A DNA stretch of 64,000 bases, taken from positions 186,001 to 250,000 of the forward strand of contig CALMAK010000021.1 of NCBI GenBank assembly GCA_937859515.1, written 5' to 3'. Made by a program: the position numbers and the translations under genes. How positions within the stretch are numbered: position 1 is the stretch's first letter; the number at the start of each line of letters is the position of its first letter. The notes beneath the pieces were generated by a model. The model searched no databases. It was not told the DNA's origin and was given only the letters and a program-made list of their open reading frames with translations. Positions 48,894-53,574 of this stretch are shown here, piece after piece. The stretch is from an uncultured Candidatus Saccharibacteria bacterium. Its GTDB lineage: Bacteria > Patescibacteriota > Saccharimonadia > Saccharimonadales > Saccharimonadaceae.

Positions 48894-48908
48894 TCAGCAT
48901 CCTCCAAG

Positions 48909-48938
48909 AAAAAACACTCACATTTGTGAGTGTTTTTT
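48909..48938 (+). terminator. Terminator after the 70-residue gene
   Basis: AAAAAACACTCAC and GTGAGTGTTTTTT form a 13-bp stem with a 4-nt loop. Confidence 0.9.
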
Positions 48939-48941
48939 CTA

Positions 48942-49117
48942 TGGAGCGATTTTTTGAATTCGCTAGAACCCATTTTAGCACAAAAAGCTAATTGAGCCGC
49001 GCCGCCTGTCCGCCGAAAGGCGGACGCGCCCCGACCAGAAAACCCTTTGCATATTTTTTGAAATTTCCCCCGCCGTGATTTTTTGGATTTGGTAAAGGGT
49101 GTTCTGGTCGGGTGCGC
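48942..49117 (-). repeat. Left copy of a 176-bp perfect inverted repeat (repeat Y)
   Basis: Base-for-base reverse complement of 51479-51654. It contains a GTCCGCC-TTTC-GGCGGAC hairpin, a TGC-TAAAAT promoter-like box and a terminal AGCGA/TCGCT hairpin, and ends with CTCCA at its outer edge (48946-48942). Confidence 0.95.
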
Positions 49118-49163
49118 TGTCGCTTTGGCGACATTGGCGGTGTTAGAGTATAATAGGACTACT

Positions 49164-51248
49164 ATGAATACTGAGATGTACTTGAGGCGACGTAGCAAGG
49201 TAATAGTTGCCAACCAGTCTGATCACGCTGAGCTTGATGACGCGTATCTTGTGAGTATGCAAAAGAATATCGAGAGTCTGGGCTATACTTTTTCTACTGA
49301 TGTCCTAAAGGCACTTAAGCAGACTAGCCAAACACAGGCAATCAGCTTTTATGAAGACGTAGTAGCCGCACTAAAGCAGTTAGTGGGCGCGAATGTAGTA
49401 TATAAGCCTATGTACCCCAACTTTCCTAAGCAGGTAGCAAACGCCGACGAAGTTGAGCTATATATCAATGCGCAGCTTCACTATTTTGGCAATTGGCTCG
49501 GGGTAAGAATACTGCCTGAATACGAAAAAGAAGCGAGAGGCGAACTGACTGATAATGTTTCCCTCAAGACTATCAATCTTGGTAGCGTCGATGATTTTAA
49601 CAGTATTTTCACACTTTTAGTCCAGTCAAAATCCTCTGTATCTGAATCTGACAAAAACGATATCAAGTGGTTTGCGCAGAACTACACTGATAACATTGTC
49701 GGATTGCTGCCAGACGAGATACCCAATAAGGAAAATCTCGCCACCGTAACATGCTATTTACTTGAATATACGCAGCACGGTGGTGAGCTGGCAAAGCAAT
49801 ACTTCAAGACTGCGACAGATGTCTTGCGGCTCATCGTTGCACTGTCGGGCGGTGATGTGAGCCTTGCTGAAAAATCTAAGATTAAAAGCTTTAAGCGTGC
49901 AGAGCGCCGCATGATTTTGGAGCTTCTCGAAAACTGCAAGTCAATTACCGAGGATATGCTGCGCTATAAAGAACAGTGGAAACGTGCTGGCGAGCGTCTG
50001 CATCCGTCTGAGTATAAGAGCCGCTTTCCGAAAACCGAGAAAGCCTTTGAGGTACTGCGTGATGACAAGCCATTTGAGACATTCAATAGCAAGCTTGAGC
50101 AACGTATCAAACAGCACGATACTACAGAATCTCTGGCATTGCTAAAAACTCGGCCAGGCGAGCTGGCTCGCAAGCTTGATTTATTGCTGCGAACAGCATC
50201 TAATCCTCAAGAGGTGTTAGATGCTTTTTCAGAGGTTGCGCCGTCGGTTTCATCAACCGTACTTTGGCAATTATGGGCACATCTCAAAGAGCGAAATCAT
50301 CAAAAACCTATTCGTGTTTTCTTCCCGAAAGGCAATGTCGGAAAAGCTCAAGCAATCGAGAACAATCTTCCTAAATTAAATGAGGAGACTCGGCAAAAAG
50401 CGATAGCAATCTGCAGAGACGCGCTCCTTGCAAAATACAAAACACTCCCGCCACTCGGTAAAGTATATATTGATCGAGAGCTAAAAGATTTTACAATACC
50501 ATTTGCGTTACGCTCGGCATCTAAGGCGCTGAGAACTGTCGGGAGAGGCAGCCGATTGGCGCTGCCAAGCGGCAATACCGTACGCTTCTTCATCTGGTGG
50601 AAAGACGGTATAGACCGAACTGACATAGATTTAAGTGCTCTGGCGCTAGACGAGCATAGTCAGTTTAAGATGCAAATTGCGTACTATAACCTAAAAGAAC
50701 TTGGCGGCTATCACAGTGGCGATATCACCTCAGCGCCCGACGGGGCTTCTGAGTTTATAGATTTGGAAATTGACAAAATGCTTGAGGCTGGCGTGCGATA
50801 TGTCATTATGTCGGTCAACTCGTACACTGAGCAGCCGTTCTACGACCTACCTGAGTGTTTTGCGGGCTTCATGATGCGCCAGCATCCACAGAGCGGCGAG
50901 ATATACGAGCCACGAACCGTTGGAAACAAAATTGACCTTACTGCCAATACAAGAGTTTGCCTGCCGTTCATTATCGACCTCAAAAAGCGAAGTGTTATCT
51001 GGACTGACTTGGCGGTAACACGCAACCCAAGCAGCCAAAACAATGTACTGGGTAACATGTCGACGCTCACGATCATGAATAAAGCAATGCTGTCGCTCGT
51101 GAAGCCAAGTTTACTTGATTTATTTACGTTCCACGCCGAAGCGCGGGGCGAACTAGTAAAAACGATAGATGATGCTGATATAGTGTTTAGCCTCAAGCAA
51201 GGGATTACTCCATTCGATACCGATACGATAGTTGGAGAATATCTGTAG
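49164..51248 (+). CDS. TerD-like domain stress protein inside the inverted repeats
   Basis: 694 residues. Residues about 1-460 are helical, including an RAGERLHPSEYKSRFP segment. Residues about 470-640 match the TerD pattern: DIDLSALALDEH, YYNLKELGGYHSGD, DGASEFIDLEIDKM and ECFAGFMMR. This resembles the long MXAN_6230/SCO0854-type proteins of Ter stress systems. TerD domains bind calcium; several DLDLS-type acids are present. Start: ATG with TATAAT (49149-49154) 9 nt upstream; an in-frame GTG/ATG further up lies in the repeat. No other ter genes are nearby, so it is an isolated cargo gene. Confidence 0.75.
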   Translation: MNTEMYLRRRSKVIVANQSDHAELDDAYLVSMQKNIESLGYTFSTDVLKALKQTSQTQAISFYEDVVAALKQLVGANVVYKPMYPNFPKQVANADEVELYINAQLHYFGNWLGVRILPEYEKEARGELTDNVSLKTINLGSVDDFNSIFTLLVQSKSSVSESDKNDIKWFAQNYTDNIVGLLPDEIPNKENLATVTCYLLEYTQHGGELAKQYFKTATDVLRLIVALSGGDVSLAEKSKIKSFKRAERRMILELLENCKSITEDMLRYKEQWKRAGERLHPSEYKSRFPKTEKAFEVLRDDKPFETFNSKLEQRIKQHDTTESLALLKTRPGELARKLDLLLRTASNPQEVLDAFSEVAPSVSSTVLWQLWAHLKERNHQKPIRVFFPKGNVGKAQAIENNLPKLNEETRQKAIAICRDALLAKYKTLPPLGKVYIDRELKDFTIPFALRSASKALRTVGRGSRLALPSGNTVRFFIWWKDGIDRTDIDLSALALDEHSQFKMQIAYYNLKELGGYHSGDITSAPDGASEFIDLEIDKMLEAGVRYVIMSVNSYTEQPFYDLPECFAGFMMRQHPQSGEIYEPRTVGNKIDLTANTRVCLPFIIDLKKRSVIWTDLAVTRNPSSQNNVLGNMSTLTIMNKAMLSLVKPSLLDLFTFHAEARGELVKTIDDADIVFSLKQGITPFDTDTIVGEYL

Positions 51249-51478
51249 GCATAGTAGAATAGGAATTGATAAGGCTATTTAGTCGCTTCCTTCTCATTTC
51301 TGACTCTAGCGATTAAGCTTCCCTTATCTCTAAAGAAATCAACACGCTAGCTGTGGCGTGTTTTTACTTTTGGTCATCCACCGACTCAGTGGTTAATAGC
51401 TAGACTCTCAGGATGAGGGCGCGTAGCGCGTCGGCTCTGCCGACTAAAGCCGCGCCACCTCTACTACTTTTGCAGTAG
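51249..51478. other. Non-coding stretch between the TerD-like gene and repeat Y
   Basis: About 230 bp without a gene. Holds the terminator at 51341-51365 and two hairpins near 51431-51478 (TCGGC/GCCGA and CTACT/AGTAG). Sequence from 51425 is rich in GC hairpins with a TAAAGC spacer, like the ones at 51755-51805. Confidence 0.5.
51341..51365 (+). terminator. Terminator of the TerD-like gene
   Basis: AACACGC and GCGTGTT stem followed by a T run. Confidence 0.75.
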
Positions 51479-51654
51479 GCGCACCCGACCAGAACACCCT
51501 TTACCAAATCCAAAAAATCACGGCGGGGGAAATTTCAAAAAATATGCAAAGGGTTTTCTGGTCGGGGCGCGTCCGCCTTTCGGCGGACAGGCGGCGCGGC
51601 TCAATTAGCTTTTTGTGCTAAAATGGGTTCTAGCGAATTCAAAAAATCGCTCCA
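51479..51654 (+). repeat. Right copy of the 176-bp perfect inverted repeat (repeat Y)
   Basis: Identical to the reverse complement of 48942-49117. It ends in CTCCA (51650-51654), which is also the first five bases of repeat X. Confidence 0.95.
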
Positions 51655-51749
51655 AATCGGACTTTTCGAGGAAAATATCGCCCGAATGGGCGGTTTTTTC
51701 TTTGGTTGCGCGGAGCGCAAACCACGGGTTTTTCAGGGGGGAGATTTGA
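51650..51749 (+). repeat. Copy of the tRNA-Lys 3' flank (repeat X), inverted relative to the original
   Basis: 100 bp, one mismatch (51725) to the reverse complement of 53391-53490. It starts with CTCCA, the same bases as the tRNA-Lys 3' end, and carries the tRNA terminator hairpin (CGCCC-GAAT-GGGCG plus T run). Confidence 0.95.
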
Positions 51750-51754
51750 AATTG

Positions 51755-51781
51755 CCATGTGCTAAAGCACATGGATTTTTG
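51755..51781 (+). terminator. Palindromic terminator upstream of the recombinase promoter
   Basis: CCATGTGCT-AA-AGCACATGG followed by ATTTTTG; a second perfect hairpin AGCGGCT-AA-AGCCGCT follows at about 51791-51806. Confidence 0.7.
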
Positions 51782-51826
51782 CTTGTTAGAGCGGCTAAAG
51801 CCGCTACGCCTTGCGTGGCTCATCGT

Positions 51827-51840
51827 GATATAATAAGGGT
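51827..51840 (+). promoter_or_regulatory. Extended -10 promoter of the recombinase leader
   Basis: TGA-TATAAT (TATAAT at 51829-51834). The +1 is expected near 51841, exactly where the structured leader begins. Confidence 0.65.
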
Positions 51841-51957
51841 GGACACAAATCATTAGACAAGGCTATTTTTTGGCTCAAATAGCCACTTCGTACAAGTTAG
51901 ACTTGTCTGATTTGTGTCCAGCGAAGTGGCTTTTTGAGTATCAAAAGGAGGGGCGAA
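51841..51957 (+). ncRNA. Structured leader RNA with pseudoknot/terminator potential
   Basis: An outer stem pairs 51841-51861 with 51902-51919 (18 bp, 3-nt bulge). Inside are GGCTATTT/AAATAGCC (51861-51884) and ACAAGT/ACTTGT (51892-51906). AGCCACTTCG (51881-51890), inside the outer loop, pairs with CGAAGTGGCT (51922-51931) outside it, followed by five T: an H-type pseudoknot or a terminator. A second CGAAGTG lies on the recombinase start codon (51954-51960), so the same loop could mask translation. Probable cis regulator of the recombinase; no known class recognised. Confidence 0.6.
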
Positions 51958-53574
51958 GTGAACAAATACATCTTGTATGTGCGTAAAAGTACCGATGTAG
52001 AGGACAAACAAGTGCTATCTATTGAGGCGCAACTAGCGGAACTCCGCAAGTTTGCCAAAGATAATCAACTAACGGTAGTTGATACCATCATTGAGAAAAA
52101 GTCCGCTAAAATACCAGGTCGTCCCAAGTTCGGCGCAGTTTTGGAGCGCATACAGGCAGGCGAAGCCAACGCGATACTCGCGTGGCATCCCGACCGATTA
52201 GCTCGCAACTCCGTAGACGGTGGACAATTGATTTATCTCTTAGACCAAAGAAAACTCGCCGATCTAAAGTTTCAGACATTTTGGTTTGAAAATACTAGCC
52301 AAGGTAAGTTCATGCTCAACATCGCTTTTGGACAAAGTAAGTATTATGTAGACAACTTGAGCGAAAACACCAAGCGCGGACTGCGCCAAAAGGTACGGCG
52401 CGGCGAATACCCTAGCAACGCACCGTTTGGCTATTACAACGACAAACGCGACAAGACTATTAAAGTAGATAAGCAACTAGCTCCGCTTGTTGTGTCTATT
52501 TTTGAAATGTATGCAAAAAACGAGAGCCGTTTTGCAGATATTGGTGACTATCTATACTCGCAAGGAATAAAGACCAAAGGTGGCAAAGTATACAAACCAG
52601 ATAAGGTCAAAAAGATTTTGACTAACCCGTTTTACTACGGACACTTTGTGTATCGCGGCGAGATACACGAGGGAAAGCATACACCGCTAATAAGCAAAAA
52701 GTTATACGATGATGTACAAAAAGTTGTTGCTCTGCGTTGTTTTCGGCAACAAGACCATACGCGCGAACCTGCGCCGTATTGTGGACTGCTCAAATGTTCG
52801 TGCGATATGATGATTACTGCCGAAAACAAAACCAAACGACAGAAAAATGGCAATGTTCATTACTATGTTTACTACCGATGTACGCGTAAAAGCAAAACGA
52901 TTACTTGCACGGAGCAACCTGTGCGCTCCGAGCCATTAGATGAACAGTTGTCGGGCTTGTTGGCGCAATTCGCCCTGCCTGACGGCTGGGGCGACTGGTT
53001 GCGCCAGAGAATTGACAAGACAGAACGCAAGGAGCAAGCCGAAAGTGATGTATTGCTGGACGACCTACGCGACAAGGTGGCGCACCTGTCGGGGAAATTG
53101 CAAAGACTCCTTGATAGTTTCTTGGACGAACTCATAGACCGCCAAACCTACCTTGCCAAGAAAGCCGAGCTAATGAGCGAAAAGAAGTCTTTAGAAGAAC
53201 AAATGAGCGATATTGCGCTGGGTCAAAATACTTGGGTTGAACCGATGACAAAGTGGCTAGATAAAGCCGCTTCTATCTGTTCTATCGCTCATGCTGACGA
53301 CTTTTTTGCAAAGAAAACACTTTTGAGAGAAATCTTTGGGTTGAACCTGTTTTTAACAAACAAAAATGTCGCCACTCGTGGCGACCAATCTCAAATCTCC
53401 CCCCTGAAAAACCCTTGGTTTGCGCTCCGCGCAACCAAAGAAAAAACCGCCCATTCGGGCGATATTTTCCTCGAAAAGTCCGATTTGGAGGGACCACTGG
53501 GGCTTGAACCCAGGACACCCTGCTTAAAAGGCAGGTGCTCTAACCAGCTGAGCTATGGTCCCACAAATATGTGA
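51958..53574 (+). CDS. Large serine recombinase (integrase)
   Basis: 538 residues as it now reads. Resolvase domain with catalytic Ser11 (YVRKST) and WHPDRLARN; recombinase domain with FGYYNDK and ILTNPFYYGHFVY; zinc ribbon with Cys at about 271-310; coiled coil (about 355-425). GTG start with AAAGGAGG 6 nt upstream; an ATG at 51934 lacks such a site. The last about 60 residues are antisense to the copied tRNA-Lys flank and to tRNA-Lys itself, so the native C-terminus probably ended near 53350-53390. Mediates site-specific integration or inversion. Confidence 0.9.
   Translation: MNKYILYVRKSTDVEDKQVLSIEAQLAELRKFAKDNQLTVVDTIIEKKSAKIPGRPKFGAVLERIQAGEANAILAWHPDRLARNSVDGGQLIYLLDQRKLADLKFQTFWFENTSQGKFMLNIAFGQSKYYVDNLSENTKRGLRQKVRRGEYPSNAPFGYYNDKRDKTIKVDKQLAPLVVSIFEMYAKNESRFADIGDYLYSQGIKTKGGKVYKPDKVKKILTNPFYYGHFVYRGEIHEGKHTPLISKKLYDDVQKVVALRCFRQQDHTREPAPYCGLLKCSCDMMITAENKTKRQKNGNVHYYVYYRCTRKSKTITCTEQPVRSEPLDEQLSGLLAQFALPDGWGDWLRQRIDKTERKEQAESDVLLDDLRDKVAHLSGKLQRLLDSFLDELIDRQTYLAKKAELMSEKKSLEEQMSDIALGQNTWVEPMTKWLDKAASICSIAHADDFFAKKTLLREIFGLNLFLTNKNVATRGDQSQISPLKNPWFALRATKEKTAHSGDIFLEKSDLEGPLGLEPRTPCLKGRCSNQLSYGPTNM
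53391..53490 (-). repeat. Original tRNA-Lys 3' flank (repeat X)
   Basis: Directly continues from the tRNA-Lys 3' end; partner of 51650-51749. Contains the tRNA-Lys terminator (53440-53463). It is also read through as the end of the recombinase frame on the plus strand. Confidence 0.9.
53440..53463 (-). terminator. Terminator of tRNA-Lys
   Basis: On the minus strand CGCCC-GAAT-GGGCG followed by six T. Confidence 0.8.
53486..53562 (-). tRNA. tRNA-Lys (anticodon TTT)
   Basis: Acceptor GGGACCA/TGGTCCC, anticodon arm CCTGC-CTTTTAA-GCAGG, T arm GGGTTCAAGCCCC, discriminator T, and an encoded CCA at 53488-53486. The discriminator T is unusual for tRNA-Lys. Its 3' five bases CTCCA are the core shared by both repeats of the island. 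Confidence 0.95.

Follow-up and report, generated by a model that had tools for sequence, protein, structure and literature searches.

In myxophage Mx8, attP lies within the gene of the tyrosine integrase IntP, and integration through this single site changes the C-terminus of the protein. The yeast 2-micron plasmid, encoding the tyrosine recombinase Flp, is a replicating circle in which two unique regions lie between two inverted repeats carrying recombination sites, and it does not integrate at tRNA genes. Integrons, with a tyrosine integrase and folded attC sites, show polarized growth of cargo cassettes at one site. In archaeal suicidal integrases (SSV, pTN3, and pT26-2 type), which are tyrosine recombinases targeting tRNA genes, att is located inside the integrase gene, and the gene is split by integration; a review of archaeal tyrosine recombinases considers self-disrupting recombinases to be exclusive to archaea (PMC8371274). 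Large serine integrases of phages and ICEs (A118/LI type) have Resolvase, Recombinase, and zinc-ribbon domains and integrate by a single crossover; canonical ones do not perform attP × attR or attP × attL recombination without a directionality factor, and serine integrases have been modeled with the zinc domain 5 bp nearer the center on attB than on attP (PMC3783163).

The locus described here is located in a 64,000-nt stretch of DNA (the window) from a 907-kb Saccharibacteria genome. It resembles Mx8 and the archaeal suicidal integrases in that, as judged from frame continuity and tail exchange, att lies within the recombinase gene and the gene is altered on integration, and the archaeal systems also in the use of tRNA targets. 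It differs from Mx8 in the serine type of the recombinase and in two predicted attP copies, and from the archaeal systems in the bacterial host, the serine recombinase, the exchange of a tail instead of splitting of the gene, and the inverted spare copy. It shares with A118/LI-type integrases the domain composition, a match to PDB 4kis, and a single-crossover integration model; unlike them, the family has a core at the tRNA 3' end and two inverted copies of the predicted attP, which overlaps the 3' end of the recombinase gene, and no gene for a directionality factor is evident. The circle predicted from the integrated layout would, similarly to the 2-micron plasmid, have two inverted recombination sites. 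The likeness to integrons is in the polarized growth of cargo cassettes; still, in place of the tyrosine integrase IntI and folded attC sites, the element has inverted att copies and, as its sole recombinase, a serine recombinase that cuts both strands. An integron-like folded single-stranded attP was set aside, since serine recombinases cut both strands. A literature search combining Saccharibacteria, serine recombinases, tRNA, and inverted repeats yielded no paper with all four, which is not proof of absence, and further searches by title or abstract gave nothing nearer to the element; the layout with an inverted spare recombinase 3' end is apparently unreported.

Read in the tRNA sense, the locus has the order tRNA-CTCCA-X-recombinase-X'-TGGAG-Y-cargo-Y'-CTCCA-terminator (Table 1). 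The initial annotation had described two inverted repeats, one perfect, of 176 bp, enclosing the cargo gene, and one of 100 bp with one mismatch enclosing a serine recombinase, the two meeting at CTCCA beside tRNA-Lys, and this description holds base for base, with the X arms complementary at 99 of 100 positions (the sole mismatch is at 51725). All three of its core-bearing sites are present as well, and to these we add a fourth CTCCA at 48902–48906. Inverted cores past the native terminator are found in 4 of 20 elements with 4.0 expected, which is not above chance, and the interpretation of such a core as a scar of an earlier insertion was therefore rejected. A chance origin of the repeats is ruled out by their length and exactness, and an assembly artefact, by the existence of 35 other complete elements with the same layout, several of them in single-contig genomes.

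Removal in silico of the DNA between the outer cores makes tRNA-CTCCA directly abut a clean hairpin terminator, so that X is element DNA supplying a new terminator and not the native 3' flank of tRNA-Lys, as had been supposed. The latter reading is also rejected because X-type arms are found at many kinds of tRNA gene and hence move with the element. By its sequence, the integrated copy spans 48942–53490.

Table 1. Features of the integrated element and its flanks (positions in the window).
Feature	Position	Strand	Basis
T, displaced native tRNA-Lys terminator hairpin, chromosomal side of attL	48907..48940	-	16-bp perfect hairpin and U-run; joining to tRNA 3' end gives normal tRNA-terminator order
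Core TGGAG (minus strand CTCCA), left element boundary, attL	48942..48946	-	sequence
Y, left arm of the 176-bp inverted repeat	48942..49117	.	176/176 complementary to 51479-51654
Cargo gene, 694 aa from ATG (721 aa from upstream TTG 49083)	49164..51248	+	ORF, no confident domain
Y', right arm of the 176-bp inverted repeat	51479..51654	.	complementarity
Core CTCCA of the putative intact middle attP (Y'-CTCCA-X), shared by X and Y	51650..51654	+	sequence
Spare recombinase 3' end, inverted, 5' of recombinase; tail codons ..FLEKSDLERFFEFARTHFSTKS, stop	51605..51754	-	minus-strand frame; tail motif in 34/36 elements
X, left arm (51647-51754 if extended: 108 nt, 97%)	51650..51749	.	complementarity
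Large serine recombinase, GTG start; conserved part to ~53388, X' tail, antisense tRNA-Lys, stop 53572-53574	51958..53574	+	Pfam, PDB match, reading frame
X', right arm; codes predicted recombinase C-terminal tail, putative new tRNA-Lys terminator region	53391..53490	.	complementarity, frame
Core TGGAG, last five nt of tRNA-Lys, right boundary, attR	53486..53490	-	sequence
tRNA-Lys(UUU), target gene	53486..53562	-	ARAGORN

By its domains the recombinase is classified as a large serine integrase: Pfam identifies Resolvase (PF00239, 7.7e-24) and Recombinase (PF07508, 5.4e-18), with the zinc ribbon (PF13408, 1.4e-4) slightly under its curated cutoff, the match to 4kis (A118 integrase) has an E-value of 1.5e-06, and Y7, R9, and S11 of the catalytic serine motif in the Resolvase N-terminal domain are invariant among 13 relatives. 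The closest named relatives are from Saccharibacteria. Phage recombinases have less than 27% identity among the matches listed, no match was found in a plasmid collection, and one IMG/VR locus, L159 (1–4598), encodes a relative with 40% identity; in this locus a methyltransferase cargo sits alongside the recombinase within the X-bounded segment.

Relatives of the recombinase are present in 36 of 393 genomes of the order (E ≤ 1e-60) and, across the phylum Patescibacteria, in 82 of 380 (E ≤ 1e-90). We have examined 81 loci, the window included, the relatives having 39–92% amino-acid identity. X arms flank the recombinase in 66 loci and the full layout of Y-cargo-Y' next to X-recombinase-X' is seen in 36, with X and Y overlapping at the core by 3–10 bp in 32 of the latter. 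Many, not all, of the 15 family members lacking an X pair are at contig ends, and at some X-only loci on long contigs a Y pair was undetected. The tRNA 3' end is directly adjoined by 68 of the 81 loci, representing 18 amino-acid types and 30 anticodons, and in all 68 the recombinase faces the tRNA; at least one further locus adjoins tmRNA. By sequence comparison the layout represents a phylum-wide family of small integrative elements, not an oddity of a single genome.

Targets other than tRNA are observed in several loci. In L128 (2536–2924) the recombinase faces the 3' end of tmRNA, and tmRNA is probably also the target in L127, given the similar readthrough tail. L057 and L076 have a common non-tRNA target, TGGTGCGGAGCTACAGAATTTACTTAAAC, 3' of the recombinase, which ends with CCA on the other strand and has no match in Rfam or by ARAGORN. 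More distant serine recombinases of the same order (30–38% identity) have X/Y-type repeats in none of six cases; distant recombinases facing tRNA without inverted repeats in L161 and L162 may represent a single-site ancestral form.

L054 is a sister element located at tRNA-Leu(UAA). When its flanks are joined, they align continuously with tRNA-terminator-lemA loci that are uninterrupted in two genomes, G130 and G001, the second belonging to the genus of the window. This site thus has the features of a genomic island, extending from the tRNA 3' end to a displaced flank and empty in relatives. The empty tRNA-Lys locus whose search had been suggested was not found for the window's own site in relatives.

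Complete elements from the first set have Y'-core-X at the middle junction, Y'-core-chromosome at the left end, and tRNA-core-X at the right end. Consequently, Y'-CTCCA-X is predicted to be an intact attP, and the outer ends, its split halves attL and attR. The initial annotation was right that different inverted repeats have been joined via recombination at a common core and that this is not an ordinary island with one att pair. As the middle attP is inverted relative to the element ends, the excised circle would have two identical copies of attP that face one another. A T-loop-like GGTTC is located in Y' 29 nt from the CCA end in 19 of 21 complete elements of the order, while in tRNA genes this distance is 25 nt; the shift of four (not five) is suggestive of the shift of the zinc domain between attP and attB, and would help explain how one recombinase family uses many tRNA genes.

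The recombinase gene also has its 3' end within the repeats, a feature missed initially; by this reading, the C-terminus changes upon integration, and a full spare attP lies at the middle junction. In the integrated state the recombinase frame passes through X' and the core into antisense tRNA, and if read on the circle, it continues past X' and the core and terminates in Y with a brief tail such as LVEFYNSARTYFSTKC. In all 66 recombinases this frame stays open through the end of X', compared to 50 of 132 other frames, and the circle-read stop is 11–18 residues past X' in 32 of 36 complete elements. An hxx(F/Y)xx(A/V)RTxF-like tail is common to 34 of these 36, even at approximately 40% recombinase identity and with varying length of X'. 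The codon-position entropy of the tail is weakly coding-like, and its conservation seems to reflect both coding and a DNA motif of the att site, two sources not separable here; maintenance of the frame despite variable X' lengths appears to be the stronger argument for translation. By its frame, the recombinase gene has attP as its 3' end, and the architecture shows that upon integration antisense tRNA takes the place of the recombinase tail. L060 contains two elements in tandem; here the recombinase of the outer one continues into Y of the newer one and has thereby recovered a tail of this type, which is the outcome expected under the model if a further element has entered next to the tRNA. 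In the window (53491–53574) and in relatives, recombinase ORFs terminate in antisense-tRNA peptides (..GLEPRTPCLKGRCSNQLSYGP..), and hence database entries for recombinases from such bacteria may show misleading C-termini.

X arms of one element are more similar to each other (median identity 99.2%) than to those of other elements (73%, median of best matches), the element's own arm being closer in 60 cases out of 60. Identity of Y arms tracks the presence of the recombinase, with a median of 100% in elements having one vs. 92.6% in recombinase-less cassettes, where the values were transcribed by hand (p = 3e-4). The Y-end pattern has matches in 58 of the 393 genomes from the order (the reversed control gives none), and many of these matches are Y-cargo-Y' units adjoining tRNA without a recombinase, e.g., L084, L085, L086, L087, L088, L094, L095, and L059. 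In several such units the place of X-recombinase-X' is taken by an X-hairpin or X-hairpin-X' remnant of 54–118 bp, the X-hairpin-X' remnants sometimes combining two different X types. In L085, a partial, inverted, degenerate copy of tRNA-Ser and a second terminator hairpin lie past the cassette, making the locus nearly palindromic. L059, L060, and L095 are arrays with alternating X and Y segments, as expected from entry next to the tRNA and outward decay of older elements.

The cargo content differs widely across the family and includes restriction-modification systems of types II and III, which are frequent, an OLD-like nuclease, a reverse transcriptase, a transporter, and metabolic enzymes. 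Even elements with 90% identical recombinases have entirely different cargo, and two close relatives with the same layout at tRNA-Lys, L011 and L012, differ as well (one has SDR, GNAT, and hydrolase genes, the other has EamA and SDR); cargo is thus exchangeable between Y arms. Among 36 elements, cargo is oriented as the recombinase in 12, oppositely in 19, and in mixed fashion in 5. The 694-aa cargo protein of the window has no confident Pfam or PADLOC match, leaving its previous label "TerD-like" without Pfam support, and no relatives among the 393 genomes of the order.

We consider it probable that the element is a serine-type counterpart, in bacteria, of the archaeal suicidal integrases, with an inverted spare 3' end. 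In the proposed mechanism, a circular element would enter the tRNA 3' end via the large serine recombinase by an attP × attB crossover at the core formed by the last five bases. The order within attP would be X, containing codons of the C-terminal tail, then the core, then Y, containing approximately the last 14 residues and the stop. The circle would have attP twice, inverted, one copy 3' and the other 5' of the recombinase, so that the recombinase and the cargo would each be bracketed by an inverted repeat. Integration through the copy 3' of the recombinase would split it into attR and attL and replace the tail by antisense tRNA, while the second copy would remain whole in the middle. The recombinase segment could then invert, through the cores or through homologous recombination between the X arms, which would restore the proper tail and permit excision. 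The extent of the arms, with X starting close to where the conserved recombinase domains end and Y spanning the tail end and the stop, fits integration via attP at the recombinase 3' end.

The sequences themselves show the element boundaries, the layout common to the family, the constant facing of the recombinase, the uninterrupted relatives of one site, the continuity of the frame into Y, the exchange of the tail, and the turnover of cargo; from these we infer the circular form, which site pairings recombine, locking by tail loss, and unlocking by inversion. A switch driven by inversion, taken alone, has just under an even chance, and a latch formed by the self-disrupting recombinase, with the tail swapped at integration and the inverted spare 3' end allowing inversion to re-arm it, is tentative, being somewhat below an even chance. 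No circular form was seen, and the unlocked orientation of the recombinase is observed in none of the 68 tRNA-adjacent loci, which counts against a switch, yet a short-lived active state would give the same fixed orientation. The need of canonical serine integrases for a directionality factor when recombining such site pairs also counts against it. Furthermore, the tail is outside the canonical recombinase domains, and its loss might leave the enzyme active.

The turnover and mixed orientation of cargo, the opposite orientations of one SDR gene in L044 and L046, as well as survival of Y-armed recombinase-less cassettes in arrays, would also agree with a platform for natural recombinase-mediated cassette exchange, in which an inverted pair of attP sites flanking the cargo serves for swapping or inverting cargo cassettes between elements and the effect on the tail is secondary. 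This is rather unlikely, as it requires attP × attP recombination, not performed by canonical serine integrases, and homologous recombination over 100–180-bp arms would produce the same turnover. A reading of the two invertible segments suggested earlier as switches controlling expression relies on the inverted cores on both sides of each segment. Inversion of cargo has one direct support from the sequence, an SDR dehydrogenase gene (87% amino-acid identity) in opposite orientations relative to the recombinase in two close relatives, L044 and L046, which is the sole close pair of homologous cargo genes; free inversion of the recombinase segment is not supported, given its constant orientation. 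Since nearly all comparisons reveal different and not flipped cargo, and the arms by inspection contain terminator-like hairpins and no obvious promoters, we regard such switches as very unlikely.

High identity within elements implies gene conversion, and X holds a terminator hairpin serving the tRNA, so that the repeats could be a functionless duplication kept by homologous recombination, with the arms acting only as insulating terminators; conservation of the layout in many families and at 40% recombinase identity, together with the greater divergence of Y arms in recombinase-less cassettes, makes this highly improbable. Two adjacent, separately mobile transposons would account for long terminal inverted repeats on each segment and for independent Y-cargo-Y' units. 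They would not account for the X-hairpin-X' remnant holding the place of X in several of these units, nor for the recombinase frame joining X to Y; no DDE or other transposase is found between the repeats of the window element among ORFs or by Pfam, and a serine recombinase cannot excise DNA between inverted cores. Of all readings we give this one the least credence, as exceedingly improbable.

The analogue of suicidal integrases with an inverted spare 3' end would thus be a bacterial, serine-type self-disrupting recombinase with an apparent built-in remedy, contrary to the restriction of such recombinases to archaea (PMC8371274), and the latch, if true, would be a switch between integration and excision in place of a directionality factor. 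Patescibacteria have tiny genomes with few mobile elements described, and the family adds a compact one carrying restriction-modification and other accessory genes. Moreover, recombinases using many tRNA-gene ends could aid genetic work in these hard-to-manipulate bacteria.
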